This document shows, one piece after another, positions 7,020-64,000 of a stretch of 64,000 nt of DNA. The notes under the pieces were generated by a model. That model was not told the origin of the DNA and searched no databases. It saw only the letters and a list, made by a program, of their open reading frames with translations. Within the stretch, counting starts at the first letter, position 1, and each line of letters begins with the position of its first letter. Location of the stretch: positions 1 through 64,000 of the forward strand of contig JAPUEB010000012.1 in assembly GCA_027492795.1 (NCBI GenBank). Reading direction: 5' to 3'. The position numbers and the translations under genes were made by a program. The DNA is from Chryseobacterium sp. (GTDB lineage Bacteria; Bacteroidota; Bacteroidia; Flavobacteriales; Weeksellaceae).

Positions 7020-9224
7020 ATGGTTTACGATTTAGAACAGGAAAACAAAGAAATCCTTGCAAGATACAAGGATCTCATTTCCAATACTTACCGCACGCTT
7101 ACCGAAGAACAGAATAAGGTTATAAGAAAAGCCTTCGATATTGCTTTGGATGCGCACAAAGATCAGCGCAGAAAATCGGGAGAACCATACATTTACCATC
7201 CGATTGAAGTGGCGAAGATTGTTGCCAACGAAATTGGTTTGGGTGCTACTTCCATTGCTTGTGCGTTGCTCCACGACGTCATTGAAGATTCGGAATACAC
7301 CTACGAAGACATTAAGAAAATTTTTGGTGAAAAAATCGCGAATATCGTGAACGGACTTACCAAAATTTCGGTAATGAACCATCAGAATATTTCGATACAG
7401 TCTGAAAATTACAGAAAACTTTTGCTCACACTTTCCGAGGATTTCCGCGTGATTCTCATCAAAATTGCCGACCGTTTGCATAATATGAGAACGCTGGAAA
7501 GTATGGCGCCGGATAAACAGAAGAAAATCGCTTCAGAAACGGTTTACATCTACGCTCCTCTCGCACATCGTCTTGGTTTTTACAATATAAAATCTGAGCT
7601 TGAGGATTTATCTTTAAAATACAATAATCCCGATGTTTACAACGAAATACTTGGGAAATTGGAAATTGCTAATGAACATAGGCAAAAATATGTAGATGAA
7701 TTTATAAAAGAGGTTTCCGAGCGTTTGAAAGAAGAAGGCTTGAATTTCACCATAAAGGGTCGCGCAAAAGCCATTTCTTCCATTTACAGAAAAATGCTGA
7801 AGCAAGGCGTTCCTTTTGAAGAAGTTTTCGACAATTATGCCATCAGAATCATCTATAAATCGGATGCAAAAAACGAAAAATTTCTCGCTTGGAAAGCCTA
7901 CTCCATCGTTACCGACCTTTACCACAGCAATCCGCTGAGAATGCGCGACTGGATTACACAACCGCGTTCTACAGGTTACGAAAGTTTGCATTTAACCGTT
8001 CTTGGTCCCGATAAAAAATGGATTGAAGTACAAATTCGTTCTGAAAGAATGGACGATATAGCGGAAAAAGGTGTCGCCGCACATTACAAATACAAAGAAG
8101 GTTTCCGGCAAAACAGCGACGAAAGAAATTTTGAACAGTGGGTTACAGAAATCCGCGAAGTGATAGAACAGCAGCAAAACCTTTCTGCAACGGAACTTTT
8201 AGATAATATTAAACTAAACCTTTATACCAAAGAAGTTTTTGTTTTCACGCCAAAAGGTGAAATAAAAATTCTTCCGATTGGTTCTACAGCCTTGGATTTT
8301 GCTTTTTCCGTTCACTCGGATTTGGGAACGAAATGTCTTGGCGCGAAAATCAATGGAAAGCTGGTTCCGATTTCTTATGTTCTTCAAAACGGCGATCAAG
8401 TAGATATTCTTTCCTCCCAAAACCAAAAACCAAAATTGGATTGGCTTGATATTGTAGTCACTTCCAAAGCAAAATCTAAAATCAAAGCGTATCTCAATTC
8501 TCAAAAAAACGAAATAACACAAGAAGGTAAAGAAACGCTGCAAAGAAAACTTCGTCACGTTAAAATTAATTTTAATGACGAGGAAATCAACAAAATGCAG
8601 AAGTTTTTTAATATGAAAACCTCTCAGGAATTGTTTATGGCTTTTCAAACCGGAACTTTGGATACGGGAGATTTGCGAAAATATCTTGAGAGCAAAAGCG
8701 TTATCAATAATCTTTTGAGCCGTTTCCGAAAATCACCTAACAAAAATGAATCGTTCGAGGAAGTTCCAGAAACCAATCTCGATATGATTGTTTTCGGGAA
8801 AGATGAAGAAAAATTGAATTATACTTACGCCAAATGTTGCAGCGTAATTCCTGGCGATAAAATTTTCGGATTTATTACGATTTCTGATGGGATAAAAGTG
8901 CATAACGATAATTGTCCGAACGCGATAAACCTTCGCGCACAGTACGATTACAGAGTAATGCCTGCAAAATGGGTGAACGCAGAAAGTTTCAAAAATCGTG
9001 TAAAAATTGAAATTGAAGGTCTCGACAGACTCGGTATGATCAACGATATTACCCAAGTCATTAGCCAAAGTATGAGTATGGATATGAAAAGCATGTCGAT
9101 AGAATCCAACAACGGTGTTTTTACCGGAAGCATCAACCTTGAAGTGAAAAACAAGAACCAATTGGAAGAGACTTTCAGGCAATTAAAAAATATCAACGGC
9201 GTTTCTAAAGTTAAACGTATGTAA
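7020..9224 (+). CDS. spoT: bifunctional (p)ppGpp synthase/hydrolase (RelA/SpoT family)
   Basis: Makes and degrades the alarmone (p)ppGpp in the stringent response. Domains in order: HD hydrolase (about residues 25-180, with H60 and the HDVIED box at H85-D90), RelA/SpoT nucleotidyltransferase (about 240-350, with RSTGYESLH), TGS (about 405-465), a helical/zinc-finger-like region, and a C-terminal ACT domain (about 658-734). The loop RMRD at 307-310 sits where bifunctional Rel enzymes have RFKD rather than the acidic EXDD of monofunctional RelA. At 734 aa it is standard length. nhaA follows after 3 nt, so the two are co-transcribed. It looks like the organism's long Rel protein; spoT and rel are both used as names. 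Confidence 0.93.
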   Translation: MVYDLEQENKEILARYKDLISNTYRTLTEEQNKVIRKAFDIALDAHKDQRRKSGEPYIYHPIEVAKIVANEIGLGATSIACALLHDVIEDSEYTYEDIKKIFGEKIANIVNGLTKISVMNHQNISIQSENYRKLLLTLSEDFRVILIKIADRLHNMRTLESMAPDKQKKIASETVYIYAPLAHRLGFYNIKSELEDLSLKYNNPDVYNEILGKLEIANEHRQKYVDEFIKEVSERLKEEGLNFTIKGRAKAISSIYRKMLKQGVPFEEVFDNYAIRIIYKSDAKNEKFLAWKAYSIVTDLYHSNPLRMRDWITQPRSTGYESLHLTVLGPDKKWIEVQIRSERMDDIAEKGVAAHYKYKEGFRQNSDERNFEQWVTEIREVIEQQQNLSATELLDNIKLNLYTKEVFVFTPKGEIKILPIGSTALDFAFSVHSDLGTKCLGAKINGKLVPISYVLQNGDQVDILSSQNQKPKLDWLDIVVTSKAKSKIKAYLNSQKNEITQEGKETLQRKLRHVKINFNDEEINKMQKFFNMKTSQELFMAFQTGTLDTGDLRKYLESKSVINNLLSRFRKSPNKNESFEEVPETNLDMIVFGKDEEKLNYTYAKCCSVIPGDKIFGFITISDGIKVHNDNCPNAINLRAQYDYRVMPAKWVNAESFKNRVKIEIEGLDRLGMINDITQVISQSMSMDMKSMSIESNNGVFTGSINLEVKNKNQLEETFRQLKNINGVSKVKRM

Positions 9225-9227
9225 TAT

Positions 9228-10394
9228 ATGAAAATAACAAAATATTTCCAGAATTTTTTTCACAGCAGTCAGTCATCAGGAATTTTATTAATCATTTGCG
9301 TCATCATTTCGCTGATGACGGCAAATTCTTCACTTGGAGGACCATTTCACGAACTTTTGGACTCTAAAATTGGAGCCTATACTGTGAGTGTTTGGATTAA
9401 TGATGGTTTGATGGCGATATTCTTCCTTTTGGTAGGTTTGGAAATCAAAAGAGAAATTGTAGAAGGCGAACTTTCCACTTTTAAAAGTGCCTCACTTCCT
9501 ATTTTTGCGGCGATTGGTGGAATGTTGGTTCCTGCCTTAATTTATGTTTTTTTTACCAGCGGAAGTGATTATGCAAAAGGTTGGGGAATTCCGATGGCGA
9601 CGGATATTGCGTTTTCATTGGCGATTATTTCAATGTTGGGACGCAGAGTTCCGGATGCTGTAAAAATATTTTTGGCAGCATTAGCAATCGTAGATGATTT
9701 GGGCGCGATAATGGTTATCGCAATTTTTTATACGGATCAAATTCATTGGAACTATCTTTTATTAAGCGGCGGTGTAGTTTTACTGTTGATTGCACTTAAT
9801 TATTTTAAAGTAACAAAACATATTTTTTATCTCGTTCCGGGTGCATTTTTGTGGTATTTTATGCATCATACCGGAATTCACGCTACGATTGCGGGTGTAA
9901 TTTTAGCCTTTACAATTCCTACGAACTTGTCAGACACGGAAATTTCTCCGCTCGAAAAACTGGAGCAAAAACTTCATCTTCCGGTGAATTTCCTCATTAT
10001 GCCGATTTTTGCTTTGGCGAACACCAATATTATTTTCAAAACAGGAATGGTGGATGGACTTTTCACCAATTTCGGTTACGGAATAATTTTCGGTTTAGTT
10101 TTAGGTAAAGTTTTGGGAATCAGTTTATTTTCATTTGTCGCCATCAAAACAAAAATTAGCGAACTGCCCTATAAAAGCAACTGGATGCATATGATTGGAG
10201 CCGGACTTTTGGCGGGAATTGGATTTACAATGTCGATTTTTATTGCCTTACTCTCGTTCAAAGGACATCCGGAAATACAGGAAGAAGCGAAATTTGCAAT
10301 TTTGGTGGCGTCTGCAATTTCAGGATTTTCAGGTTATTTGGTATTGAAATATTTTGCCAGAAAAAAGGGTTCCTTTTCTGACTTTAAGGAGTAA
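9228..10394 (+). CDS. nhaA: Na+/H+ antiporter NhaA
   Basis: Inner-membrane antiporter exporting Na+ in exchange for H+. It has 388 aa and about twelve membrane segments. The hallmark AIVDDLGAI contains the ion-binding aspartate pair D156-D157, equivalent to D163/D164 of the E. coli protein. The conserved opening (SGILLIICVIISLMTANS) and the C-terminal GIGFTMSIFIALL match NhaA. It begins three bases after the spoT stop codon, so expression is probably coupled to the alarmone gene. Confidence 0.95.
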   Translation: MKITKYFQNFFHSSQSSGILLIICVIISLMTANSSLGGPFHELLDSKIGAYTVSVWINDGLMAIFFLLVGLEIKREIVEGELSTFKSASLPIFAAIGGMLVPALIYVFFTSGSDYAKGWGIPMATDIAFSLAIISMLGRRVPDAVKIFLAALAIVDDLGAIMVIAIFYTDQIHWNYLLLSGGVVLLLIALNYFKVTKHIFYLVPGAFLWYFMHHTGIHATIAGVILAFTIPTNLSDTEISPLEKLEQKLHLPVNFLIMPIFALANTNIIFKTGMVDGLFTNFGYGIIFGLVLGKVLGISLFSFVAIKTKISELPYKSNWMHMIGAGLLAGIGFTMSIFIALLSFKGHPEIQEEAKFAILVASAISGFSGYLVLKYFARKKGSFSDFKE

Positions 10395-49663: not shown

Positions 49664-50692
49664 TTATTTTTCCTCTTCGAAATACAATCTATAATACTTC
49701 CCTTTTTCGTCTTGTCCGGTTTCAATCATTTTTCTATCGCCGTGAACGTAAATATGGAAATTTTTATCCAACTTAATTATTGATTTAAAATACCGCTGGT
49801 TTTTCTTCAACGCAGAAGTATTAATCGGAAATTCTTCGGCGATGGAAACCTGCATTTCCTGTTCATAATCGGTTTTGTAATTGACGAAACTTTCAATCAC
49901 ATTTTTGTCTGCCAAAACTTCGTTGGTAAATTCCTCAAAGTCAAACTGCTCTTTTTCTTTGAAAAAATTGAGAGATTTATTCAGAAAATCGGCTTGGTCT
50001 GCTTTGGAAATTTCAAATTCCTGCGGAAGTTGTTTGATGACATAATCTTTGTAAATCTGCAAAGTTTCCTGCGTGTGAAAATAATCGTCGTCGCGTTGTT
50101 TTACTTTTAGGAAATCTTCAAACCAATAGTATTCATCACCGTTTTTGTTGTTATCAATGACTGAAACAGCGTAACCAGTTTCTTTTCCGTTGTTGTAAAT
50201 CAATGCGCCTTTATCCAATTTTGAAAGTCCGATTCCGTAATCTTTTTCCAATTCGTAATCATCATTTTTAGGATAGATTTTCAGGAAAGGTTCTTTCTTT
50301 TCGGTTTTGAAAATCCCGATGAAATCTACTTTTTCGCCTTTATTATCAGAATTTTCCAAAGGCTCTCCTTCAAAATAACAAACAAATAATTCTCCGCCTT
50401 GAATTCTTGGATTTTCAGAAATTTCATACAAATGTTTTGCAATGGTTTCGCTTTCCCACTGAAATTTATTCTGGTCTTCAAAAATTTCGGAAACCGCACC
50501 ATAAACGACATTATTCGCCAAGTAAGAATCGCTGTAAAACTGAAACTGTTCTTCGGATTTGAAACTTTTAAGAAAAAAATCGGTCAACAATTCTTTCATT
50601 TCATCTTCCAACTGCAATGCTTCCGACGAAAGAAAAAGATTTTCCTGATTGATTTTGTTTCCGACTTTGTGGACGATTATCTTTTTAATCAT
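49664..50692 (-). CDS. nucleoid-associated protein (NA37/YejK family)
   Basis: A 342-aa cytosolic protein of the 37-kDa nucleoid-associated family. The family layout is visible: MIKKIIVHKVGNKI, an ISENPRIQGGELFVCYFEG strand region, IFKTEKKEPFLKI, and the C-terminal RYFKSIIKLDKNFHIYVHGDRKMIE. YejK-type proteins bind DNA or the nucleoid; their job is unknown. Here the gene overlaps the membrane-protein gene before it by 8 nt, so it is the third gene of a tightly coupled operon. Confidence 0.82.
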   Translation of the reverse strand: MIKKIIVHKVGNKINQENLFLSSEALQLEDEMKELLTDFFLKSFKSEEQFQFYSDSYLANNVVYGAVSEIFEDQNKFQWESETIAKHLYEISENPRIQGGELFVCYFEGEPLENSDNKGEKVDFIGIFKTEKKEPFLKIYPKNDDYELEKDYGIGLSKLDKGALIYNNGKETGYAVSVIDNNKNGDEYYWFEDFLKVKQRDDDYFHTQETLQIYKDYVIKQLPQEFEISKADQADFLNKSLNFFKEKEQFDFEEFTNEVLADKNVIESFVNYKTDYEQEMQVSIAEEFPINTSALKKNQRYFKSIIKLDKNFHIYVHGDRKMIETGQDEKGKYYRLYFEEEK

Positions 50693-51179
50693 TTTTTGTT
50701 ACTAAAAAATAATAATTAAGTATTGAATTTACTAATTCCAGAATTGCAAAGATGATAATTCCTATGTCGATTACAAAATAAATTAAGTAAGATGAAAAAA
50801 CTTTTATAAATATCAAAGGAAATAAAAAGTTGAAAATTAACAAAATAGATAATAAAATAATAACAAAAGCTATATTGATTATTAAGCAATCAAATAGTGA
50901 AAATTCTGTTTTATAAAACTTACTCTTTATTTTTTCATTTTTAGCTTTTTTTATCAATTCATTTTCAACTGAAAGAATGACCGCAAATAATGAAATTGTA
51001 AAGCCAAGCAAAATGCCTAATAAATTTATTGCATTCGATGAAAAAGTAATTGCTTCTGTAGTTTTGACATTTAAATAATAAAAAAAAGTAGAAAACAATA
51101 AAGCAACAAAAATGTTACCTATGACACCTTTGCCACGGGTTTTGAGATATTCAAAAAAAAGTATAAGATAACTTAACAT
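50685..51179 (-). CDS. four-helix membrane protein of unknown family
   Basis: A 164-aa protein with four predicted membrane helices at about residues 20-38, 47-70, 96-122 and 128-152 and short Lys/Glu-rich loops (KKAKNEKIKSKFYKTE between helices 2 and 3). The start codon follows the stop of the 300-aa gene immediately, and the end overlaps NA37, so translation is coupled on both sides. No family is recognised. Small four-helix membrane proteins next to a soluble partner are typical of membrane-damaging phage defence effectors such as lambda RexB, but no sequence match is claimed. Confidence 0.65.
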   Translation of the reverse strand: MLSYLILFFEYLKTRGKGVIGNIFVALLFSTFFYYLNVKTTEAITFSSNAINLLGILLGFTISLFAVILSVENELIKKAKNEKIKSKFYKTEFSLFDCLIINIAFVIILLSILLIFNFLFPLIFIKVFSSYLIYFVIDIGIIIFAILELVNSILNYYFLVTKND

Positions 51180-52082
51180 TTAGAATGCTCTTGCTATTTT
51201 TAGCAATTGTTTAAGAAATTCTTCAGTTATAAATTCTCCCTTATCTTCATCCATTAAAGAAGAAATAAATTCCTTTCTTGCAAGATGCTCAGTATCTATA
51301 GTTGTTTCATTCCCATTTTCATCATTTCCTCTAATTCTAACACGTGTTATTCCACTTTTACTATTTCCAGTTAATTTATTATATGCTTCCAAAGCAATAG
51401 AATTAATATCTAAGCCTTTATCAGCCTTCATAGTTAACATAACATCTTCTTTTACTGGAACAACTCGATTTTTATTGAAATTTAGATAATCGGAACCTAA
51501 AATCTTTTTATCGTAATAAACTTCAGCAACTTTCGTTCTACTAAATCTCTCTAATTCAGTCTTAAAATTATTAATACCTACTAAATCGTGCTTTAAAGAA
51601 TATTGATCTGATTCTTTAATTTTTCGATTATAAAACTTAGAATAAATATTGAAATAGTTAGTAAGATTCAGAAGTGATACGCCGTTAAAATTACTTTCTA
51701 AAAAAAGATAAACCGAATTATCATCTTTGTCAATTTTTATTACAAAATGTGTTTTTTCAATTTCACCATCTAATTTTGATTTTGGGTTTGGTCTTTCATC
51801 ACCAGTTGTCTTATTTATTATATTAGGTCTAAATTTATTTCTAGCACTTTTAAATGTTCCTGATATATAATTCCCATCAATTTCTGCATCATCAATAAAA
51901 CAAAATTTATCAGACTTAAGATTGTAAAATCTTTTCTTCTTTGCCAATTTTATTATAAACTCTACAACCTTGTCAACTTCATAAAAAGGAACTTCTTGTA
52001 TATCATTACTTTCTACTATTTCTGTTTTATAAATCCTTTTAAATAATACAGCAAATTGAATTCTCGCATCTTTGTTTTCCAT
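51180..52082 (-). CDS. unknown 300-aa soluble protein
   Basis: Start at ATG 52082 (MENKDARIQFAVLF); the longer frame reads through a terminator hairpin and repeat upstream and is rejected. The beta-rich N-terminal half has YISGTFKSARNKFRP, then EIEKTHFVIKIDKDDNSVYLFLESNFNGVSLLNL. The C-terminal part has VMLTMKADKGLDINSIALEAYN and GITRVRIRGNDENGNET. No catalytic motif or known family is recognised. It is first in the operon with the membrane protein and NA37. The order soluble sensor-like protein then small membrane protein is similar to lambda rexA-rexB; that is an analogy of layout only. Confidence 0.6.
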   Translation of the reverse strand: MENKDARIQFAVLFKRIYKTEIVESNDIQEVPFYEVDKVVEFIIKLAKKKRFYNLKSDKFCFIDDAEIDGNYISGTFKSARNKFRPNIINKTTGDERPNPKSKLDGEIEKTHFVIKIDKDDNSVYLFLESNFNGVSLLNLTNYFNIYSKFYNRKIKESDQYSLKHDLVGINNFKTELERFSRTKVAEVYYDKKILGSDYLNFNKNRVVPVKEDVMLTMKADKGLDINSIALEAYNKLTGNSKSGITRVRIRGNDENGNETTIDTEHLARKEFISSLMDEDKGEFITEEFLKQLLKIARAF

Positions 52083-52107
52083 ATCAATTAATTTTCTATA
52101 AAAATAC

Positions 52108-52135
52108 AAAAAATCCCCAAGCAAAAACTCGGGGA
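52108..52135 (-). terminator. terminator-like hairpin upstream of the 300-aa gene
   Basis: Minus-strand TCCCC / GGGGA stem with a long loop and six T. It would stop read-through from hipA, so the downstream operon needs its own promoter between 52083 and 52107. Confidence 0.65.
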
Positions 52136-52156
52136 CTTTCAATTTATTTAAGTGAA

Positions 52157-52190
52157 CAACGGATTGCTTCGTCATTCTTCCTCGCAATGA
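52157..52190. repeat. half copy of the GTCATTGCGA-type repeat
   Basis: ACGGATTGCTTCGTCATTCT followed by TCCTCGCAATGAC matches the right half of the repeat at 37815-37873. Confidence 0.65.
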
Positions 52191-52539
52191 CTATTTCACC
52201 TCCTCGAAAATGAACATGCAAACCAGTCAATGAGTTACGATTTTTATGGTACAAAAATGATTGATAAAAATCGGTCAAAACTTTTCCGATTTGTGAAGTA
52301 ACACCCTGTACATCTTCTACTTACGAGCAAATTTAATAAAATTTATTTATTCTATCAAAAAACACGATTTTGTTCAATAAAAATTTGCGTTCAATGACAT
52401 TGAACAGGTGAAAATATTGAACATTTTTTTCGCTTTTTGAGGTGATGGTTTCAGAATCGCAAGACAAAGATAAACAAGCGAACGGAGAAATTATAACTAT
52501 TTAATTAATGTGATTATAAATTTTCTTGCCAACAAATAT

Positions 52540-53769
52540 CTAAAATATTAGAAAACGTTTCTCAATCAACTCAATATTTTCAATCTTAACACCATTTCCC
52601 TTCGCTAAATTTTTCCAATTTCCCAATGCAGCAATTGTATTTTGAATGACTTCATCTATAAATGCTTTTGAAAGTTTTGCTTCCAAACCTAATTTTTCAA
52701 GGTGAGTTCGAGTAATATTTCGCCCCTCTCCCATCACCATCGTGCTTTGTTCTCCACCTAGTCCATTTGAAAATGTGAGATCGTACGCGGGTGACAATTT
52801 CCATTCGCCAAATTCATTCATTAAGAAGCTGAAATTTTTAGCATGGTCGTCTCGATTGTGTGCCATGACATTGAAAACTGCTAGTCGAAACATTTTTTCA
52901 ACCTCTCGAATATCTTTGGTAAGTACGTTCGTTAAAGCCAATAAATCTTCATAATCATGAGATGGAAACCTGAAATTACTATGGATCAATCCACTCACGG
53001 CATGCATGTGGAAGCGCTTATTTTTATTTCTGTCAAATCTTTTTACAGCAAAATATCCACTTCCTTTTTGTGAAGGAAATAAATGTGTTGCAGGCATTTC
53101 TAATCCAGCATTTTTTGCAATTATAGCATAAACATATTCAATAGCTCCTGAATCATTACCATCTTGCGTGTTCGGAAATTTCACAATCCAATGTTCAAAA
53201 CCTTCGCTCAATTCACCTGTTCCGTGAGAAATGTTTTTTCTTTCAGAATCAAGACCAATCATTGCTTTTGGTCTCGCTCCGGCTGAAGATCCGTTCAGTG
53301 CCAAAAGTTCATTGATGACTTCTCCAGATTCACCTTCCAAAACTTGCTCAGTTTGCGATGCCAAAACATCGAGGTTAATTTTTTCATCATAATGGTTTGG
53401 ACTTTCATCTGGTTCATAAACCAACGCTCCCATTCCGTTTAATCCAACATACGCTAAGCGATCAAGTGGTGTAACATCATTCGGCAAAATTCCTTCAGCT
53501 CTCAACATCCTATCAAAAAGCAATCTTCCCCAACCGTCGGGCAAGCTGTCATTGAAAACACCTGCCAATCCTTCAAAGGGTGTTTTTGGAAGTTCTATTA
53601 CTCCACGTTGTAAAGGAAGTTTTATTGGTGATATTTCCAAATTTCTTTCAACGAAAGTATTTTCAAATTCGAAATAAATGATTCCATCACGAATCGCTAA
53701 TCGTCCAACTGGCTGAATCTTTTGTCCAAAATTCAATCCTACTTTTAATTCTTTGATTGATGTTCTCAT
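52540..53769 (-). CDS. hipA: HipA family toxin kinase
   Basis: A 409-aa Ser/Thr kinase toxin. It has the HipA N-terminal subdomain (TPFEGLAGVFNDSLPDGWGRLLFDRML), the ATP-loop NGSSAGARPKAMIG, the catalytic loop AHNRDDHAKNFSFLMN with the catalytic Asp, and the metal-binding LSPAYDLTFS. HipA kinases phosphorylate glutamyl-tRNA synthetase or other targets, stopping growth. Its start overlaps the hipB stop by four bases. All key kinase residues are present, so the toxin should be active. Confidence 0.93.
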   Translation of the reverse strand: MRTSIKELKVGLNFGQKIQPVGRLAIRDGIIYFEFENTFVERNLEISPIKLPLQRGVIELPKTPFEGLAGVFNDSLPDGWGRLLFDRMLRAEGILPNDVTPLDRLAYVGLNGMGALVYEPDESPNHYDEKINLDVLASQTEQVLEGESGEVINELLALNGSSAGARPKAMIGLDSERKNISHGTGELSEGFEHWIVKFPNTQDGNDSGAIEYVYAIIAKNAGLEMPATHLFPSQKGSGYFAVKRFDRNKNKRFHMHAVSGLIHSNFRFPSHDYEDLLALTNVLTKDIREVEKMFRLAVFNVMAHNRDDHAKNFSFLMNEFGEWKLSPAYDLTFSNGLGGEQSTMVMGEGRNITRTHLEKLGLEAKLSKAFIDEVIQNTIAALGNWKNLAKGNGVKIENIELIEKRFLIF

Positions 53770-54071
53770 TTCTTACTTCCTCTTTTCTTAACAGTTTTTT
53801 CACCACTTTTAATAACTTCATCTATAGATTTAAAAACCGATGCATTAGGTTTTAATCCTTCAATTATTTCTTCCAAACCACCAACAATAGAGAGAATTTT
53901 CAAAAAAGATTCTAAAGAAATCATTCCAGTCTGTTCAAACTTTCTCAAAGTCGATAAAGGAACGCCCGATCTTTCCGCTAAACCTTCTTGAGTAAGATCC
54001 ATCTGCAATCTTCTTTCACGAACATTTTGAACTAAGGTTTTTTGGGCTTTTGAAAGAGAAATAAATAACAT
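53766..54071 (-). CDS. hipB: HipB-type helix-turn-helix antitoxin
   Basis: A 101-aa DNA-binding antitoxin. The HTH_3 motif is RRLQMDLTQEGLAERSGVPLSTLRKFEQTG (residues 20-49). A Lys-rich tail (EKTVKKRGSKK) may act in toxin contact or degradation. It is encoded first and overlaps hipA by four bases (ATGA), the normal order. It presumably represses the operon at the palindrome 54098-54119, which sits over the expected transcription start. Confidence 0.9.
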   Translation of the reverse strand: MLFISLSKAQKTLVQNVRERRLQMDLTQEGLAERSGVPLSTLRKFEQTGMISLESFLKILSIVGGLEEIIEGLKPNASVFKSIDEVIKSGEKTVKKRGSKK

Positions 54072-54097
54072 TATAAGAGTAATTATTAGTAAAAATT

Positions 54098-54119
54098 TAC
54101 AATAACTAATATTATTGTA
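54098..54119. promoter_or_regulatory. candidate HipB operator palindrome
   Basis: Perfect inverted repeat TACAATAA - CTAATA - TTATTGTA, centred about 37 nt before hipB and about 15 nt after the -7 element. A second, 7-bp inverted pair TATTAGT (54084-54090) / ACTAATA (54105-54111) overlaps it. Confidence 0.6.
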
Positions 54120-54122
54120 TTA

Positions 54123-54130
54123 CAAATGTA
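54123..54130 (-). promoter_or_regulatory. TACATTTG -7 element for hipBA
   Basis: Minus-strand TAnnTTTG immediately upstream of the operator palindrome. Confidence 0.6.
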
Positions 54131-54206
54131 CAGAAAATTTAATACAAGTTTGTCAGATTTAATTTATTTGGTTCAATCTTTTTCACAAATCCATCCGCTA
54201 ACAAAA

Positions 54207-55985
54207 TCAATCTTCTGAAATTGATTCCACTTCCTCATTCGTTACATTTAAAACTCCTTTCAGTAGGGACTTTAGTTTTGTTTTCCTTTTTTCGAAAAAA
54301 TCATCAAAATCAACAAAGTCCAAAGAAACTTCGGTATCGATATGATTCTGCAATAGATATGTCGATTGATCTACAGGATTTGGATAAACCGAACTTAACC
54401 AATCTTTAAATTCTTTGCTGTTTTTCTCAAGATTCAAATTCGTTTGTAAAAGCTGAAGATTCGGAAGTTTATTGTATTTTGAGATAAACAAATCTGGATC
54501 TGCAATTCCTCGATTTAGTAGATTTCTTTTACTGAAGAAAGATTTCGGATGAATATGGTCTTGGTGATATTTAAAGGAATAGTTCAACGCAGGATACAAT
54601 AAAGTTAATGCACAGTAAGTTCTTGCCGAACCATAATCGTAATTGAGGATGTTTTCGATATCGTCATTCGTGAAACTGATTGACTTTCTTTTACCACGAT
54701 AATTATCAATCACTTCTTTGATTGGAAATCTTCCTAAATTCTCATTAACGAGATTTCTCATTACAGGATAAATTGCATCAGGAGTTCCACCAAAAGTTCC
54801 TTTTAATAATACTCGTGCCAACCATTCTTTTATTGCTCTTCGGTCATTTTCCCTTGCTGAAGAATGAAGTATTGAATCATTGAAATTATTCTTCTGTATA
54901 AAATATGCAATTGGTATTACCGCATTCAATGAGATTAAGTTATCTCGGTTATAGCCATATTTTGCAAGAAGTTCAATTGCCTTTTTCACAGATTCAGAAA
55001 TGTTGTCCCAATTTTTTTCAATGGCAACCATATTTTCTTTAGTGAAATTGTCCACCTTAAATTTGATGTCGTTAAAATCTGCCAAAACCAAACAAGATTT
55101 CAGCACAAAGTCTTTATTAAAGGCGAAACCTTCACCGATTGCATTAATCTCATCCACAAATTCGTGGATCACTTCTCTTGCATCTTTTTCTTTCCATTGT
55201 GCAGTTGCAATTGAGAGCAATAAATCTGAATAACTAAGTTTGGTTCCGCCACTATTAATTCTTATAAAAATTTGCAGAACTTTATCCAATTCTTCGCCTT
55301 CTTCAAGGAAAAAACTGATGTTTCCTTTTTGGTGAATCGCATTTTGAAGTTTACTTAGAGTATCTGTCGCGAATTTCTGTTGATACTGACTATATTTAGA
55401 AGAATCCATCAATTGATTTTCAATTATAAACTGCATCACACCAGACAAGCCATTAAAATCTAAAACTTTAGATACAGTAAACCAAAAATTATTTTCATCA
55501 TTTTTTGCTTCGATGTCACTTAAAAATCTGAAATCATATTCCAATTCTATATCATCTGATTTCTTCAAAATATTCAGATACAGTTTCTTTTTTGGAAAAG
55601 CGTGTGGACTATCCCATCTGTAATATGGAATTTTCTTCGCATAAGAACCATTTAACGCAATATAGAGTGATGTCATTCTTTGCTGTCCATCCAAAATAGA
55701 AATAACATCTTCATCGCCTACCAAATCTGCTTTTTGGTTGTGTCTGTTATCTTTTTCGTGATAATTTTTAAGAAATTCATAAAACTGAAAATCTTTTATT
55801 TTGTTTTTATCAACCTTCCAAAAAAGAAAAGTGCTTATTGGATAATCTCTCATTAAAGAATCGAAAAGACGCTCTATCTGTTCTGAATCCCAAACAAACT
55901 CACGCTGAATTGAGGGCAAAACATAATGCTTTTTCCGAATATTTTCTATTGCTTTTTTGATGGTGATTGGTGCTTCGTATGCCAT
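54207..55985 (-). CDS. DUF262/DUF1524 protein (GmrSD-type nuclease)
   Basis: A 592-aa protein. The N-terminal DUF262 domain has LPSIQREFVWDSEQIERLF, DYPISTFLFWK and ISILDGQQRMTSLYIAL (the DGQQR nucleotide-binding/hydrolysis motif). The C-terminal DUF1524 domain has the HNH-like YHQDHIHPKSFF and NLQLLQTNLNLEKN. This is the plan of single-chain GmrSD type IV enzymes, which cut DNA with modified cytosines such as glucosylated hydroxymethylcytosine of T-even phages. An ATG at 56003 would add six residues. It follows the recombinase gene by 37 nt on the same strand. Confidence 0.88.
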   Translation of the reverse strand: MAYEAPITIKKAIENIRKKHYVLPSIQREFVWDSEQIERLFDSLMRDYPISTFLFWKVDKNKIKDFQFYEFLKNYHEKDNRHNQKADLVGDEDVISILDGQQRMTSLYIALNGSYAKKIPYYRWDSPHAFPKKKLYLNILKKSDDIELEYDFRFLSDIEAKNDENNFWFTVSKVLDFNGLSGVMQFIIENQLMDSSKYSQYQQKFATDTLSKLQNAIHQKGNISFFLEEGEELDKVLQIFIRINSGGTKLSYSDLLLSIATAQWKEKDAREVIHEFVDEINAIGEGFAFNKDFVLKSCLVLADFNDIKFKVDNFTKENMVAIEKNWDNISESVKKAIELLAKYGYNRDNLISLNAVIPIAYFIQKNNFNDSILHSSARENDRRAIKEWLARVLLKGTFGGTPDAIYPVMRNLVNENLGRFPIKEVIDNYRGKRKSISFTNDDIENILNYDYGSARTYCALTLLYPALNYSFKYHQDHIHPKSFFSKRNLLNRGIADPDLFISKYNKLPNLQLLQTNLNLEKNSKEFKDWLSSVYPNPVDQSTYLLQNHIDTEVSLDFVDFDDFFEKRKTKLKSLLKGVLNVTNEEVESISED

Positions 55986-56022
55986 ATTTATAATTCTTAA
56001 CATTAATCAAATTTACCCAAAA

Positions 56023-56619
56023 TTATTGTAATTTCTCCCTCACAAATTTCGAAACAGTAAAACGATTGACCTTTAATATTCTGGCAATTCCAGCGTATGA
56101 AATTTTATTATCCAACAGATTTTTTATTTTCTTTTCTTGACCTGACAATTTCACCTTATCAGATTTTCTTCCTTTTGGTCTTCCTAAAATAACTCCTTCC
56201 GCTTTTTTTCGCGCTAAAGCTTCTTTCGTTCGTTGAGAAATTAAGTTTCTCTCAATTTCTGCAGATAAGCCGAATGCAAAAGCCAAAACTTTTGAATTAA
56301 TATCATTACCCAATCTGTAGTTATCTTTTATCGTCCAAACCTCAATTTCTTTTTTCATACATTCGTTTAGGACACTCATAATCATAAGAAGACTTCTGCC
56401 TAATCTCGAAAGTTCGGAACATATTAATTTGTCGCCTTTTTTCATTTTTTTAAGCAATTTTCCTAATTGTCTTTCGTGGATTTCTTTTGTCCCAGAAATG
56501 GTTTCTTCAATCCATTTTTCAATAACAAACTCGTGCTTCTCGGAAAAATGGTTGATTTCAAATCTTTGATTTTCTACTGTTTGCTTGTCGCTACTTACTC
56601 TAATGTAACCGTAAATCAT
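56023..56619 (-). CDS. Mpi-type serine recombinase (DNA invertase)
   Basis: A 198-aa resolvase/invertase. The start is the ATG at 56619 (MIYGYIRVSSDKQT); the longer frame lacks family support. S9 is the catalytic serine, with LICSELSRLGRSLLMIM, the long helix AFAFGLSAEIERNLISQRTKEAL and a C-terminal HTH (YAGIARILKVNRFTVSKFV). Strings such as WTIKDNYRLGNDINSKVLAFAF are characteristic of the Bacteroidetes master invertase Mpi family, which flips promoters and genes. It starts 55 nt from the left inverted repeat and is the obvious candidate enzyme for the segment at 56675-58248. Confidence 0.9.
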   Translation of the reverse strand: MIYGYIRVSSDKQTVENQRFEINHFSEKHEFVIEKWIEETISGTKEIHERQLGKLLKKMKKGDKLICSELSRLGRSLLMIMSVLNECMKKEIEVWTIKDNYRLGNDINSKVLAFAFGLSAEIERNLISQRTKEALARKKAEGVILGRPKGRKSDKVKLSGQEKKIKNLLDNKISYAGIARILKVNRFTVSKFVREKLQ

Positions 56620-56674
56620 TTTATTAATATTAGATAAGCTACAAATTAAGAATAATTGACTGAGCATTTAAAAA

Positions 56675-56706
56675 GGACGTTTAAATTGCGCGATGATGAA
56701 GTAGCA
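56675..56706 (+). repeat. left 32-bp inverted repeat of the invertible segment
   Basis: Begins GGACGTTTAAATTG and ends GATGAAGTAGCA. It is identical in reverse complement to 58217-58248 and encodes TFKLRDDEVA in both contexts. Confidence 0.95.
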
Positions 56707-57471
56707 AATGGTATTCATCCACATTATGATTTTGTTAATAACAAGATTAAAAAAAAGCATCCACATTTAAAAGTTAAACAGGGAATATTTGGGTTGTCAA
56801 ACGAAGAAAAAAATGCAATAGAATTTTTAGATATTGAATTAAATCTTATAAAACCATATTATTCCACAGACCAAATAAAAAAATATTTTGCAGATTCAAC
56901 TAATAATGAATGGATCATTTATACTGATTCCACGTTCAGGAATCCTGAGAGAATAAAACCTTTTCCGAATATTAAAAAACACTTAGACCAGTTTAGTGAG
57001 GTTATAACTTCAGACAATAAACCATATGGATTGCACAGAGCTAGAAATCAAGATTTTTTCTGTGGAGAAAAAATTTTAGCGTTAAGAAAGTCGGCAGATT
57101 CTCCTCAATTTACTTATACAAATTTTGAATGCTATGTTTCAGCGACATTTTATATTATTAAAACTCCTCGAATAGATCAGAGATTTCTTTCTCTTTATCT
57201 AAATTCCAAAGTTGTTCAATTTTGGCTTAAAAATAAGGGAAAAATGCAAGGTTCAAACTATCAATTAGACAAAGAGCCTATTACTGATATTCCTATTATA
57301 AAGTCAAAATTTGAAGATGAAATAATTCAACTTTTTTTAAAATTTGAACAAGAGTGGTTAGTTGAAGGAAACATTAGTGAGGTTATTGGGGAATTAGATT
57401 CATTAGTGTACATGAGTTTTGATTTATCAAAGGATGAAATTAAATCGATTGAAAATAATTTATTGTCATAG
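56707..57471 (+). CDS. silent alternative target-recognition domain (TRD-B)
   Basis: An open frame of 254 codons after the left repeat with no normal start codon; the frame opens at a TTG (56656) only by chance. It aligns along its length with the C-terminus of the methyltransferase: WIIYTDSTFRN versus WIIYTDSSFKN, KPYGLHRARNQDFFCGEKI versus APYGLHRARNKYFFEGEKI, and KNKGKMQGSNYQLDKEPI versus KNRGKMQGDIFQIDKEPI, with divergence between these blocks. This is the TaqI-like C-terminal specificity domain. It is expressed only after inversion, giving a 1150-aa enzyme. Confidence 0.85.
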   Translation, partial: NGIHPHYDFVNNKIKKKHPHLKVKQGIFGLSNEEKNAIEFLDIELNLIKPYYSTDQIKKYFADSTNNEWIIYTDSTFRNPERIKPFPNIKKHLDQFSEVITSDNKPYGLHRARNQDFFCGEKILALRKSADSPQFTYTNFECYVSATFYIIKTPRIDQRFLSLYLNSKVVQFWLKNKGKMQGSNYQLDKEPITDIPIIKSKFEDEIIQLFLKFEQEWLVEGNISEVIGELDSLVYMSFDLSKDEIKSIENNLLS

Positions 57472-60400
57472 AACTATCAATTGATTTTACTTCCTCAAAT
57501 GTTAATCCGTAAAGTTTATAAATCATCAAGTCTAATTTTTTAACAAATTCACTATTCGAAATTACATTCTTTTCTTCTATATAATTGAATATAACCATCC
57601 ATTCTGAATCGTCTGATACTGGAATTATAGGAATTGCTAAAATTGGTTCTTTATCTATCTGAAAAATATCTCCCTGCATTTTACCCCTATTTTTCAAATA
57701 AAATTTAATCAAATTAGAATTTAATAATAAGGTAAGGTATTTCAAATCAATTCTCAAAGATTTAATTATAAAGTAAGATTGGGAAACATAACAGTCAAAG
57801 TCTGTATAAGTAAAAGTTGGTTCTTTGCATTTACGAATAGACATAATTTTCTCACCCTCAAAAAAATACTTATTTCTAGCTCTGTGTAAACCATAAGGAG
57901 CAAAATCAGAAGTTATAATTGATTGGTACTTATCTAAATGTAATTTTACCTTTGGATAATCATTAATCTTTCTTTGATTTTTAAAGGATGAGTCTGTATA
58001 AATTATCCAGAACTTATTGTTATCAACGGAAAGGTACTTTTTTAGTTGTTCCGAGGTGAAATATGGTTTTATTATTTCTTTTTCAAGTTCAGAAAAATCA
58101 AAATTTGAGAGTTCTTTTTCTGATAGAACAAAAACTCCGTCACCTTTTTTTGATTTTGAATTAAGTAATTTTGAAGACTTCATATTGACAAAATCTTGAG
58201 GAGCTACAATTCCTTGTGCTACTTCATCATCGCGCAATTTAAACGTCCCTTTACTTTCAATCTTTTTTAGAATCTTATCAATCTCACTATTATTAAAACT
58301 AATAGTTTTTCCAAAATGATTTTCTGGAATTAAATTAAACTGATATTTTTCATCAAAATCATTTTTAGTATTAAAATCTAAAAATCTTATTAATTGACTT
58401 TTGTTTTGCGGTGGTCTTGTCAACAGCGAGAATCTTAAATTATAATCTTTTGACGGATTTTTCTTTTTTTGTAAAAGATAAATCATTGTCTGTATTCCAG
58501 CAGATTGAAATACTTTATAATCTCCAAAATCAATAAATTGTTTAATCTCAGTTCTCTCAAGAACTTCCTTTCTTAAAATACTAGCTCCTGCACTAGTAAT
58601 CCAATTATTTTGTGCTATAAAACATTCAACTCCTTTTTCTTTTAAAATGTCAAATCCTTTGGACGCAAAACCATACCATATATCCATTTTACCCATATAA
58701 TATGGTGAATCTCTGAATCCATCAAAAGCTGACTTGTTTGTATATTCCTTGATATAAGGTGGATTTCCAATCACAATATCAAAACCACCTCCATCAAAAA
58801 TTTCTTTGAAATACAAGTTCCAAAGAAAATATGGTCTAGCTTCTGTATTTTGGAAACCAATTAATTCTTTTTCGATATTTTCAAGACTTTTATGCTTTTC
58901 TTTTTTCAAAAAAAGTTCTTTTAATTCCTTAGACTTTAAATTAAAACCTCTTAAATCACTATTTTTGGAAAGATTATATTTTTTGTAAAAACTATTAATC
59001 GATGCTTCTAGCTTTGATTTTTCTTTAAATATTTTAGAATGGATTTTCCCCTCAATAATTTCATTTAGTTGCTTCTTAATAGCTAATTTGCTCTTTCCAT
59101 TTTTATTACTTGCATTAAAATAACTTTTAATAAGTCTTTGAATTTCTTCAATACTCACGGTATCGAATACGGTAATTTCTTTCGCAAAATCTTCACCAAA
59201 ATCCAAAATTGTTTGTTGTTCAGTAACAACTTCTTCATCAATTGTTGCCAAATTAGAAAGGTCTATCCCATTATAACTTTCCAATAAACTATTTCCCTGC
59301 ATAATTTTATAATCCAAATTAGGCAAAGCTTTTGGCATTCCTTCATCTACCACCAATGATAACCAAAAACGCAATCGCGCAATTTCTACTGCACCTTCAT
59401 CCAAATCAACACCATAAATTGAGTTTTGTATAATCTCTTGTTTAACTTCAGCTGGATTCCATTCTTTTTTTAATTCATACGCAATTAAAGCTTTTAGATT
59501 AAAAATTTCCTGTAACATTCCCATCGGAAAAGCACCAGAACCAATTGCAGGATCACAAATCTTAACAGCATCCAGCAAATTTTCAATTTTTACTAATTCC
59601 TTATCGGAGAATGATGGTTTGCTTTGGTTTTTTACTAGATTTTCAATCTCTTTTCGTTCTTTTTCCAAGTGCGTGTTTAGATATTCAATCAGACTTTCCT
59701 GCGTCATATACTGAACAATTTCCTTTGGCGTATAGAATGTACCTGTGTCCTTATTATAATCAATTAAATTCTCGAAAATATGTCCAAGCATTTCAGGATC
59801 TACCGCAACCGTATGTTCTTCAGGACTGTTTTCGTAAATCGTAAAATTATAGCCATTAAAAAAATTAAAAAGCGATTCAAAAAGGTCTTTTCTGAATTGA
59901 ATATTCCGATGTCCATTTGGTTCTTGTTCTTCTTCAAACAAACCACCATTTAGAAATGGAATACTTACAGTTTGTCCATTCTCCAATTTAAACTCATCAT
60001 TTTTTCTGTCCGGTGTGTTTAATGCATTAAAGAAAATTGGACACAGATATTTTTCATAAAAATCATTATGATTGGCAACATCATTGAAAAAAAGATCACT
60101 TAAAAAATGTGGATTTCCGTCTTTGTATTCTGTGTTGGAAGCTCCCAACCAATGTTTCTTTTGCAAAAAATATAGAAAAACAATACGCCCCATTAATCTT
60201 GAAACAAAGTTTCTTGCTTCTTTTTCGGTTTTATGTTCGGGATCTTTTTGGTTTTCAAAAATTGCTAAGTATCCATGATCTTCATCTAGTAAATAATCAG
60301 AAAAATCCTGATAGAGTTTTTTGTACTCATCGAAGAATTTCTTTGAAACAGGTTCAACATTAAATGCTTCAAAAAAGTCTTCCAATCTAAAACGCGATTG

Positions 60401-60904
60401 TTCCAAATTGTACAGTCTTTCAATTGCAGTTCTATGTTCATCCTGTGTCCCAAAAATATAGGTGTATTTTTTAGGATTGGTTTCTTCGGCTTCTGCTTCC
60501 GCAAAGAAATCACTTGCAGAATTTTTGCTAATAAATGAAAAACGCCATTCTTTTCTATCTTCGGTTTCGTACCCAAAAGTTGCCAATGCTCCTTTTACTG
60601 CATCTTTAATAATGTATTTTTTGATAAAATCATTAACCCCGACTTTGTTATATTCAATTCGAATATTATCTTCCAAAATAATCTCGAAAACAGGAAGTGT
60701 AACACCATCAGAAGTTTTTAGAGTTCCTACTTGATAGAATGTTTTCACAATTCTATCCGCTTCCGTCGTATTAATTTCAATAAGTTTTGGTTCTAAAGAC
60801 AATTGCAATAGATTTCTATTTCCCGAAAGAAACTGCAAGGTTTTGTTCCATCTTACTCTATCGTAATGTTCCTGCAATATATTTTTAAGTTCTGCTCTAT
60901 TCAT
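57440..60904 (-). CDS. Eco57I-type DNA adenine methyltransferase with switchable TRD
   Basis: An 1154-aa class I SAM-dependent N6-adenine methyltransferase. An N-terminal ~400-residue region shows no clear nuclease motif to my eye. The SAM motif C450-D-P-A-I-G-S-G457 and the catalytic N714-P-P-Y717 follow. The C-terminal target-recognition region (897-1154, TRD-A) is in the invertible segment; residues 886-896 (GTFKLRDDEVA) span the repeat. The gene starts 2 nt after the helicase stop, so the two are one operon. The closest types are Eco57I/type IIG and PglX-like enzymes. Methylation marks self DNA; the restriction function may lie in the helicase. Confidence 0.9.
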   Translation of the reverse strand: MNRAELKNILQEHYDRVRWNKTLQFLSGNRNLLQLSLEPKLIEINTTEADRIVKTFYQVGTLKTSDGVTLPVFEIILEDNIRIEYNKVGVNDFIKKYIIKDAVKGALATFGYETEDRKEWRFSFISKNSASDFFAEAEAEETNPKKYTYIFGTQDEHRTAIERLYNLEQSRFRLEDFFEAFNVEPVSKKFFDEYKKLYQDFSDYLLDEDHGYLAIFENQKDPEHKTEKEARNFVSRLMGRIVFLYFLQKKHWLGASNTEYKDGNPHFLSDLFFNDVANHNDFYEKYLCPIFFNALNTPDRKNDEFKLENGQTVSIPFLNGGLFEEEQEPNGHRNIQFRKDLFESLFNFFNGYNFTIYENSPEEHTVAVDPEMLGHIFENLIDYNKDTGTFYTPKEIVQYMTQESLIEYLNTHLEKERKEIENLVKNQSKPSFSDKELVKIENLLDAVKICDPAIGSGAFPMGMLQEIFNLKALIAYELKKEWNPAEVKQEIIQNSIYGVDLDEGAVEIARLRFWLSLVVDEGMPKALPNLDYKIMQGNSLLESYNGIDLSNLATIDEEVVTEQQTILDFGEDFAKEITVFDTVSIEEIQRLIKSYFNASNKNGKSKLAIKKQLNEIIEGKIHSKIFKEKSKLEASINSFYKKYNLSKNSDLRGFNLKSKELKELFLKKEKHKSLENIEKELIGFQNTEARPYFLWNLYFKEIFDGGGFDIVIGNPPYIKEYTNKSAFDGFRDSPYYMGKMDIWYGFASKGFDILKEKGVECFIAQNNWITSAGASILRKEVLERTEIKQFIDFGDYKVFQSAGIQTMIYLLQKKKNPSKDYNLRFSLLTRPPQNKSQLIRFLDFNTKNDFDEKYQFNLIPENHFGKTISFNNSEIDKILKKIESKGTFKLRDDEVAQGIVAPQDFVNMKSSKLLNSKSKKGDGVFVLSEKELSNFDFSELEKEIIKPYFTSEQLKKYLSVDNNKFWIIYTDSSFKNQRKINDYPKVKLHLDKYQSIITSDFAPYGLHRARNKYFFEGEKIMSIRKCKEPTFTYTDFDCYVSQSYFIIKSLRIDLKYLTLLLNSNLIKFYLKNRGKMQGDIFQIDKEPILAIPIIPVSDDSEWMVIFNYIEEKNVISNSEFVKKLDLMIYKLYGLTFEEVKSIDSSMTINYFQSI
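58217..58248 (-). repeat. right 32-bp inverted repeat of the invertible segment
   Basis: Reverse complement of 56675-56706, lying within the methyltransferase frame at codons 886-896. Identity stops at both edges, where single mismatches appear. Confidence 0.95.
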
Positions 60905-60906
60905 TT

Positions 60907-63900
60907 TTAAGCAAAGGTTTCAGTGATTACAATTTTTGGCTCTTCAAATGCTTTTGGCTGATTTTCTTCTTCAGCTCTCAACGCATCTAATCTTGAAATA
61001 TTAGCAATTGGGTAACGATTCATTATCTGATTGACTTCTGAAATAACCTTATCCAAAGGCATTTTTTTCTTTTTTTGTTTTGAAGCTAAATTGGAAATCT
61101 CATTTCGGAATTTTCGAAAAACTCCCATATAGATAATGCGCAGTGATGCATCAATCATTTCAATAAACTCATCTGACAATTCAGCAGGAAAAGATCGCTT
61201 CAAATCTTTTAAACTGTTTAAAAATAAAACCGCATTTCTTTCCGACACTGAAAGATTTGAAGTATCATAATCTTCTACAGTATAAATGGTATTATACACT
61301 TTTTTAAATTGATTTACTGCATTGTTTACTGCATCAAAATGATTTTCAAAGACAGCTGTTGATTTTTCTTTTTTGGTTGCTTCAAAAAGTTTTACTGCCT
61401 GATAAAAAGTAACTTCAACGCAGTTTTTATCGTTTGCGACATAAAACCCTTCTTTTATCTTGTTTCGTAAATAGCAAAGCACGGTATTTTCTAGTGATTG
61501 ACCTATCATTTCTTTGGCTACATCACTTTTGATTTTAGCAAATCGACCAACTCTGCTCTTGAGTGGCAATTTTTTAATTCGTTGATATTCTTTGAAATCT
61601 TTTTCAAAAAGTTCACGAACAATTTCAAGATATTGTAATCTTTCATCAACTTCTTCCTGCGGTTGTAAATTGCCTAAAGTATTTTCAATCAATTGCTCTT
61701 CTTCACTATAAACTTTACTATCCTCACTGAATGCAGAGTGGAAACCTTGTAGTTTTTTTAATGCTTTTTCATTCAACTTTATTAAGTCATTTGACTGAGC
61801 GGTCGGAAAAAAATTGTACACATAAATTTTGTCGGCTTTAGTTCCAATTCTGTTTACACGACCAATTCTTTGCATTAGTTTGGTAGCATTCCAAGGAATA
61901 TCGTAGTTCAAAATAATATTAGAACGATGTAAGTTAATCCCTTCTGCCAAAACTTCGGTTGTGATGATGATATTATATTGATCTTCCTGCTTCTCGGGAT
62001 AATTGGCATCGAAGTTTTTTCTGATTGTGGCGAATCTTTGTTTGCTATTAGATGCACTAATTGCCAAAACATCTTCTCTACCAATGTTTTTGAGTTCTTC
62101 AGCTATGTATTCTACGGTTTCTTTACTTTCAGAAAATATCACCAATTTCTTTTCGATATTCTTTTTATCGAAAAAAGATTTTTTGATTTCGGCAATAAAT
62201 TTTTTGGTTTTCGGGTCTTCTCCAATATTTTCCCAACGCTCATAAAGTTCAAGCAAAACCTCTTGATCTTTCAATAAACCCTTAATATATTCTTCGGAGA
62301 AATCTGATGCTTTAAAAATTTGATTATTAGGAGATTCAGCATTAAGTTCTTCAATCTTTGCTTCCAATTCATCTTGCTTCCCATCATCCAAAAATTTATT
62401 TACATCAATATCAGGTGCGATAAAAACCTTATCATTTTCAAACATTTCAATCATTCTTTGATTTGAAATATAGAATCGATACAAAGATTTCTTGAACGCT
62501 CTGAAACTGCTTTCCAACCTTTTAACCAATTGAGTTTTCATAATGGTTGAGAGTTGCAAAGAAATCAACTGTGCATTATCATAAATTTCTGCGTGTTCAG
62601 GATTTAAAAACTCAATAGCACGATAGCGATAATATCCTAATTGATCGATAACTGCACTAATTGTGTCATAAAATGTCACTTCTTGTTCAGGGGAAAATTG
62701 ATATTCAATCTTATTGGGTCCAACAACATCTGGGAATGTCATTCCTTGTGAAATAACATCTTCATAATAACGAGTGATTTTTCTAATATCAGCCCTAGTT
62801 CTCCTAATCACCAATTCAGAAAATATTTTTTCTCGAATAGGTTCATAAATTTCACGCACTTTGCTAACAAGTTCTGCGTGATCCTTTATCAAATAAAGTT
62901 TCTTGTATTTCTCAATTTTATCCGCGAAAAAGCTTTGCAGGTTTGGAACTCCTTCTAAAGTAGATTTACGGGAATCTTGAAACAAATAAATTTGATTTGC
63001 AATGTCTTCCGGTTTATTATTTAAAGGAGTTGCAGTAATTAGAATAACTTTCTTTTTTCTATCAACATCATTACCAACAGTTGCTCTTGGAGTTTTACAA
63101 ATTAATTCTAGCAATCCATACATTGTAGTACTTGATGTTCTAAATTTATGTGCTTCGTCGACAATAATCAAGTCATAATCTTCAGGCTTTTGATAATTAA
63201 TACTGTTACCTTCAATTATTTTGTGCAAACTTCCATTAGAAACAAAATCTACATAATTAGAAATTCCAAAATCACGAACTGTAGTTTTCCAGTTTGTTTC
63301 TAAAGCATTAGGATAAACAACCAATACTTTTGTATTGTAACCATTCTTATCAATATATTTTTTGATAATTCTGGTAGCAATGATTGTTTTTCCTAGTCCA
63401 ACAACATCTGCCAGAATAAAACCGTTATGCTTCAATAATTTGTGAAAACCTTCTGTTACTGCATCGGCTTGATATTGCAAATTTGTATAACCATCTGGTA
63501 AAGATATGCTCCCAACTTTATCCCGAATAACGGAATCGCCAAAATACTCAACCAACATTTTCAAAAATAAATCGTGCGGAGTAATTTTATCATCTCCTAA
63601 ATAAGTTTTCGATTTAAGTTTTGAAATATCTGCAGGAATTAAATCAGTGGCATCTTTCCACAAATCTTCAAATTCATCGGTTGCAAACTTGACATCTTGG
63701 AAATCATTTAATTGAACATTAAACTCATAATTGGCATTATCATAAGTTCCCAATCCTGAATCAGTTAAGTTAGACGAGCCTGTAATTACACTAGCTAAAG
63801 TGTGTTGATTAAATGGTTTTGGTCTGAAAATATAAATTTTTGCGTGCAGATTTTTTTGTCCGTAAGCTCTAATTTGAACTTTACCAGAAATGATATCGCC

Positions 63901-64000
63901 AATGAATTGCAAAATACTTTTTTCAGTTTTAGAATCATAAGATGCGCTCTCAATATCTTTCGCAACAAAATTCAGATATTCATCTTTAGTCTTTTCGGGA
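60907..64000 (-). CDS. PLD-domain SNF2-family helicase/nuclease (5' end outside the window)
   Basis: An open frame continues to the window edge, so the N-terminus is missing (at least 1030 aa in view). A phospholipase D-like nuclease domain comes first, with one HxK motif (HAKIYIFRP) and GSSNLTDSG. A SNF2/DEAD superfamily 2 motor follows: Walker A DVVGLGKT (near 63390), DEAH (IIVDEAHKFR), ITATPLNNKPED, then the helicase C domain with EVLAEGINLHR and MQRIGRVNRIGTKA. The C-terminal ~250 residues are helical. This fits the restriction/translocation subunit paired with the methyltransferase gene after it. Confidence 0.9.
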   Translation of the reverse strand, partial: PEKTKDEYLNFVAKDIESASYDSKTEKSILQFIGDIISGKVQIRAYGQKNLHAKIYIFRPKPFNQHTLASVITGSSNLTDSGLGTYDNANYEFNVQLNDFQDVKFATDEFEDLWKDATDLIPADISKLKSKTYLGDDKITPHDLFLKMLVEYFGDSVIRDKVGSISLPDGYTNLQYQADAVTEGFHKLLKHNGFILADVVGLGKTIIATRIIKKYIDKNGYNTKVLVVYPNALETNWKTTVRDFGISNYVDFVSNGSLHKIIEGNSINYQKPEDYDLIIVDEAHKFRTSSTTMYGLLELICKTPRATVGNDVDRKKKVILITATPLNNKPEDIANQIYLFQDSRKSTLEGVPNLQSFFADKIEKYKKLYLIKDHAELVSKVREIYEPIREKIFSELVIRRTRADIRKITRYYEDVISQGMTFPDVVGPNKIEYQFSPEQEVTFYDTISAVIDQLGYYRYRAIEFLNPEHAEIYDNAQLISLQLSTIMKTQLVKRLESSFRAFKKSLYRFYISNQRMIEMFENDKVFIAPDIDVNKFLDDGKQDELEAKIEELNAESPNNQIFKASDFSEEYIKGLLKDQEVLLELYERWENIGEDPKTKKFIAEIKKSFFDKKNIEKKLVIFSESKETVEYIAEELKNIGREDVLAISASNSKQRFATIRKNFDANYPEKQEDQYNIIITTEVLAEGINLHRSNIILNYDIPWNATKLMQRIGRVNRIGTKADKIYVYNFFPTAQSNDLIKLNEKALKKLQGFHSAFSEDSKVYSEEEQLIENTLGNLQPQEEVDERLQYLEIVRELFEKDFKEYQRIKKLPLKSRVGRFAKIKSDVAKEMIGQSLENTVLCYLRNKIKEGFYVANDKNCVEVTFYQAVKLFEATKKEKSTAVFENHFDAVNNAVNQFKKVYNTIYTVEDYDTSNLSVSERNAVLFLNSLKDLKRSFPAELSDEFIEMIDASLRIIYMGVFRKFRNEISNLASKQKKKKMPLDKVISEVNQIMNRYPIANISRLDALRAEEENQPKAFEEPKIVITETFA

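Follow-up and report, generated by a model that had tools for sequence, protein, structure and literature searches.

The locus described here is very probably a reversible specificity switch belonging to a two-gene, restriction-modification-like defence system, in which a recombinase inverts a DNA segment and thereby swaps the target-recognition domains (TRDs) of a methyltransferase. In the mechanism that we propose, the Mpi-family recombinase would act on two 32-bp sites and invert the 1.57 kb between them, so that methyltransferase residues 1 to ~886, comprising the N-terminal and catalytic parts, stay in place and the C-terminal TRD is exchanged in frame, the unused copy being carried in reverse and without a start. 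It would follow from such an in-frame exchange that cells within one clone methylate their DNA at one of two different motifs. If the switch is active in this strain, its benefit may lie in presenting a moving target to phages, or in regulation by methylation.

The inverted repeat and the two target-recognition domains

The window, meaning the whole 64-kb stretch of DNA that was analysed, contains one perfect inverted repeat of at least 20 bp (Table 1), and this 32-bp pair lies exactly where the original prediction had placed it. With an expectation of about 2e-9 in 64 kb, an inverted repeat of this kind is more than chance. Across the whole 46-contig genome the 32-mer occurs, at up to three mismatches, in two places only, one on each strand. 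Both arms read TFKLRDDEVA in the same frame, as had been claimed, and this peptide forms residues 887-896 of the methyltransferase, between its catalytic domain and its TaqI_C specificity domain. The Pfam matches to Eco57I and N6_Mtase end at residues 799 and 819, that to TaqI_C begins at 948, and the predicted structure has a helix ending at residue 885, directly ahead of the repeat-coded residues. Because the mean pLDDT of this model is 72 and its pTM 0.43, it was used for domain assignment alone; its best fold matches are CamA, M.BseCI, BrxX and MmeI. The model of the silent TRD was of low confidence and was left unused.

Table 1. Features of the locus, in window coordinates
Feature	Position	Strand	Basis or remark
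hipB/hipA	52540-54071	.	after HEC-05 in minus-strand order
GmrSD-type HEC-05 gene	54207-56003	.	after recombinase in minus-strand order
Cassette differing as a block from Soonwooa buanensis (methyltransferase C-terminal half, invertible segment, recombinase)	55990..59288	.	comparison with L025
Mpi-family serine recombinase	56023..56667	-	NCBIfam NF009949, 338 bits (cut-off 272); likely true start ~56619
Left inverted-repeat arm (recombination site)	56675..56706	+	perfect 32-bp match with right arm; unique in genome
Predicted invertible segment, 1,574 bp	56675..58248	.	ORF intact in both orientations; homologous segment inverted between L038 and L039
Silent TRD b, reversed, no proper start	56677..57471	+	ORF 56656-57471 matches Pfam TaqI_C at 39.3 bits (cut-off 26.5)
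Eco57I-type N6-adenine DNA methyltransferase, 1154 aa	57440..60904	-	Pfam Eco57I (112 bits), N6_Mtase, TaqI_C; NPPY at residue 714; best fold match CamA
Active TRD a, C-terminal end of methyltransferase	57443..58246	-	Pfam TaqI_C 37.7 bits, residues 948-1093
Right inverted-repeat arm (recombination site)	58217..58248	-	encodes TFKLRDDEVA of methyltransferase; unique in genome
PLD-SNF2 helicase, presumed restriction partner, 1110 aa	60907..64000 (on to contig base 64239)	-	Pfam PLDc_2, SNF2, Helicase_C; PADLOC C3a139 HKD+Snf2

That the segment holds two convergent target-recognition regions, one fused to the methyltransferase and the other lacking a start, is borne out by the domain matches. 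Both score above the Pfam cut-off for TaqI_C, the right-hand one within the methyltransferase ORF, and the left-hand copy, which has no in-frame ATG ahead of the repeat and just a TTG at 56656, is open over 264 codons. Inverting the segment in silico changes the 1154-residue minus-strand ORF found in the window (stop at 57440) into one of 1150 residues (stop at 57452), reproducing the intact products that had been predicted; repeats within coding sequence and a frame kept both ways are the marks of a gene-altering programmed inversion.

The protein sequences of TRDs a and b are about 45-47% identical (~45% beyond the arms), and the 47% figure suggests that the two differ in specificity. The inversion could instead act as an on/off switch, with both forms sharing a motif or one form being inactive; the difference in specificity is a prediction from sequence, and at one related locus (L092) the methyltransferase frame is shortened in its present state. 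We nevertheless regard this as unlikely, given that both frames of the window are full-length and that the two TRDs keep the TaqI_C pattern despite a difference at ~55% of residues.

A further alternative to an exchange of specificity by the recombinase is that the repeat reflects protein conservation together with RecA-type homologous exchange, the recombinase serving another role such as movement of the island. The repeat does lie within coding sequence, and the adjoining EVAQGI is conserved in several relatives, but TFKLRDD is unconserved in relatives and yet every codon is identical between the arms (10/10, against 58% of the codons for shared residues in the rest of the two TRDs). Moreover, a 32-bp repeat offers little length for homologous recombination, a tyrosine integrase is already encoded on the island, and Mpi recombinases lie repeatedly beside the same layout, with the inversions of relatives breaking at the arms, all of which makes this explanation extremely unlikely.

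The recombinase and homologous loci in both orientations

Inversion by a dedicated recombinase, the reading that we prefer, agrees with the properties of the enzyme itself, for which the predicted serine recombinase linkage held and could be narrowed to the Mpi family. The catalytic motifs YIRVSSDKQ and SRLGRS are preserved in alignments with the conserved residues intact, phmmer matches the protein to the solved DNA invertase 4m6f, and the gene, single-copy in the genome, sits 8 bp outside the left repeat. Judging from these features, the recombinase can probably flip the 1.6-kb segment. Inversion is the expected outcome at the window because there are just two sites, in inverted arrangement, and excision in its place was rejected on the same ground. 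Three-site loci (Prevotella nigrescens, L116) could excise as well. At most loci of the family the site core does not obviously match the window's site, and among the loci compared no motif common to all was established. In genome G194, the contig end of a helicase-linked methyltransferase (L047, C26) and the contig start of a silent TRD plus recombinase (L082, C108) share the core GGAGGATTTTTATA.

A search of related genomes for both orientations, which had been put forward as a check, found them at homologous loci. Two rumen Bacteroidales loci (L038 and L039) have a gene set of PLD-SNF2 helicase, Eco57I-type methyltransferase and Mpi recombinase, with a third TRD module, and differ by the orientation of a 2,222-bp segment (7760-9981) that is 100% identical between them; the flanks are 95-97% identical and run the same way, with breakpoints at the repeat arms. 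Within Weeksellaceae, 1.76 kb is inverted between L090 and L106, between flanks that are ~81% identical and in the same orientation. The Lactococcus plasmids pJM1F and pUCCL629A also differ by such an inversion: a 496-bp stretch at the start of one plasmid's active TRD matches the other plasmid's silent TRD at 99% identity, the reverse comparison giving 85%. TRD-swapping inversion, as originally proposed, is the right reading because sequenced relatives that share the gene set occur both ways round, with breaks at the repeat arms; the support comes from these relatives and not solely from the window.

Lactococcus plasmids (L164-L167; Firmicutes) carry the PLD-helicase, the methyltransferase and the Mpi recombinase, and include two related derivatives without the recombinase that look locked. 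The Prevotella nigrescens locus (L116 7815-15945, NZ_CP082843.1, strain FDAARGOS_1486) has two reversed half-methyltransferase modules, an ATPase gene and an Mpi recombinase. Of three small circular records from another strain, P. nigrescens DSM 13386, two correspond exactly to the segment that lies between a pair of sites at this locus, one in each orientation, and the third to the stretch between its two directly repeated sites. These records (NZ_CP133466-8) may have arisen during assembly; they are compatible with a rearranging population without proving it.

The window's own locus is known in one orientation, from one genome, and its contig is unbroken at the repeat. The single known orientation, together with the loss of the recombinase from the two locked Lactococcus plasmids, would suit a frozen relic, in which the inverted TRD is left from a duplication or a once-active switch and no longer flips in this lineage. 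However, the silent copy has kept its open frame, the repeats are perfect over their full length and the recombinase is intact. In one relative pair (L102/L103), moreover, purifying selection acts on the silent TRD much as it does on the active one, with dN/dS values of 0.11 and 0.095 respectively (0.03 for the methyltransferase core); other pairs had few changes or were not clean. We therefore consider a relic very unlikely and continue to read the locus as a switch that would still flip.

Distribution and exchange of the layout

The original prediction had further held that this was not a standard described system, a claim that goes too far, since many members of the family have the layout and it also occurs in Lactococcus. 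Our survey covered 320 genomes, taken as Weeksellaceae, with Cloacibacterium, Soonwooa and Kaistella among the named members, and a close Mpi-family recombinase was present in 36 of them, at 37 loci. By manual count, 23 of these loci have a methyltransferase, a reversed silent TRD and the recombinase; at eight, a contig end falls within 1.5 kb of the recombinase on the methyltransferase side, compared with 0.8 expected, an excess that speaks for the switch, and the remaining six are partial, rearranged or without the layout. On in-silico inversion the frame stays open at most loci for which a repeat pair could be detected, though not at L092 and L101 among others; two loci yielded no such pair. 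L102, L103, L156 and L099 have several nested inverted-repeat pairs inside both TRDs, and partial TRD exchange may be possible there too.

Versions linked to a PLD-SNF2 helicase include the window, L038/L039, L116, L145, L155, L156, L099 and the Lactococcus plasmids. Switching is not required by the system, since most close relatives of the helicase-methyltransferase pair, in Cloacibacterium, Soonwooa and Kaistella, lack a recombinase and carry just one TRD, which is fixed. A plasmid search led to the Prevotella and Lactococcus cases, and a scan of viral contigs gave no relatives of the methyltransferase.

Several comparisons suggest a switch that moves as one cassette. The window and the Soonwooa buanensis locus (L025) are 95% identical in DNA over 59288-64000 and 92% over 54164-55990; the block between these flanks is unrelated and could not be aligned. 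The synonymous divergence of the TRD part between L102 and L103 is about one quarter of that of the core, and between L038 and L039 the core has a dS of 0.24, yet the invertible segment is identical. We lean towards a broader model, in which an Mpi recombinase and a reversed TRD form a portable specificity-switch cassette, captured by stand-alone type IIG-like and PLD-SNF2-helicase systems in Bacteroidota and Firmicutes and exchanged between strains, with the helicase steered by the TRD in use. Where the window has its switch cassette, L025 (7617-11550) has another methyltransferase C-terminal half and an AAA-type ATPase.

The helicase partner and relation to known systems

As predicted, the Eco57I-type enzyme is linked to a PLD-helicase gene, and the minus-strand order runs from the PLD-SNF2 helicase through the methyltransferase, the reversed second TRD, the recombinase and HEC-05 to hipB/hipA. 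The PLD domain of the helicase has HAK at residue 132, plus GSSN, with the aspartate of the full HKD motif off its usual spacing. The methyltransferase combines Eco57I and TaqI_C in one ORF, the Type IIG arrangement of methylase and C-terminal TRD in a single chain. PADLOC IIG models match its N-terminus, where no conserved PD-(D/E)XK pattern was seen among the invariant columns before residue 180, and this fits a separate nuclease, here putatively the PLD domain of the helicase.

We infer that the helicase is the restricting partner and that its specificity would come from the TRD of the methyltransferase, in the way that HsdR depends on HsdS. The helicase would have to follow the TRD in use because otherwise each flip would leave sites unprotected, with self-destructive effect. 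Since protection and attack must both change with a single flip, the locus is an argument that the PLD-SNF2 helicase derives its specificity from the methyltransferase, and this makes the defence mechanism testable.

The switching principle is already known from type I hsdS loci, and on our analysis the locus is a further form of it. Phase-variable type I restriction-modification by hsdS inversion has been described for pneumococcal hsdS (PMC4948785) and P. intermedia (PMC5608340) and in a REBASE survey (PMC7394358). Such loci share with the window inverted repeats in coding sequence, a silent reversed TRD, a nearby recombinase and specificity altered by inversion, whereas the TRD of the window is the C-terminus of a single-chain methyltransferase with no separate S subunit, and restriction is presumed to fall to a PLD-SNF2 helicase; a type I system with separate HsdS and HsdR was rejected on these grounds. 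A large survey by Milman, Yelin and Kishony in 2023 reportedly lists type II restriction-modification genes among its predicted gene-altering programmed inversions, which would be the same principle in type II methyltransferase genes and would also weigh against the claim of novelty. The sites of Mpi are promoters. The Mpi master invertase of Bacteroides fragilis flips many distant sites (PMC5903667), and the window has a recombinase of the same family, but a single one beside one site pair, where it would alter coding sequence.

Type IIG enzymes, CamA and BrxX/PglX have the catalytic and TRD fold of the window's methyltransferase, which differs in having a separate helicase partner gene and an invertible TRD. 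BREX was rejected, the PglX match reaching 105 bits against a cut-off of 500, and neither pglZ nor brxC occurring in the neighbouring genes that were examined. DISARM and type-2 BR (HKD-helicase) systems also pair an N6 methyltransferase with a helicase gene, of the SNF2 or the HKD type (PMC12839542). DISARM class 1 was rejected on a DrmD score of 148 bits (cut-off 610), and BR methyltransferases, unlike that of the window, have an internal TRD and DUF499 and DUF3780 partners. In the limited set of papers searched, we found no description of Mpi-linked TRD inversion in type II enzymes, nor of the combination of Mpi recombinase, single-chain methyltransferase and PLD-SNF2 helicase. With this locus, reversible switching of specificity would reach beyond type I S subunits to single-chain methyltransferases coupled to a little-studied helicase-nuclease. 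It predicts that many bacteria from environmental, oral, rumen and dairy sources carry mixed methylation within their clones, and such mixtures would affect how methylomes are read, how phage resistance is tested and how accessible these bacteria are to genetics.

The locus is probably carried on a mobilizable element, because the defence island in which it lies (HEC-05 GmrSD and hipBA; 49664-56003) adjoins relaxase, NikA-like, VapE-like and tyrosine integrase genes (contig C12, 64610-72867).
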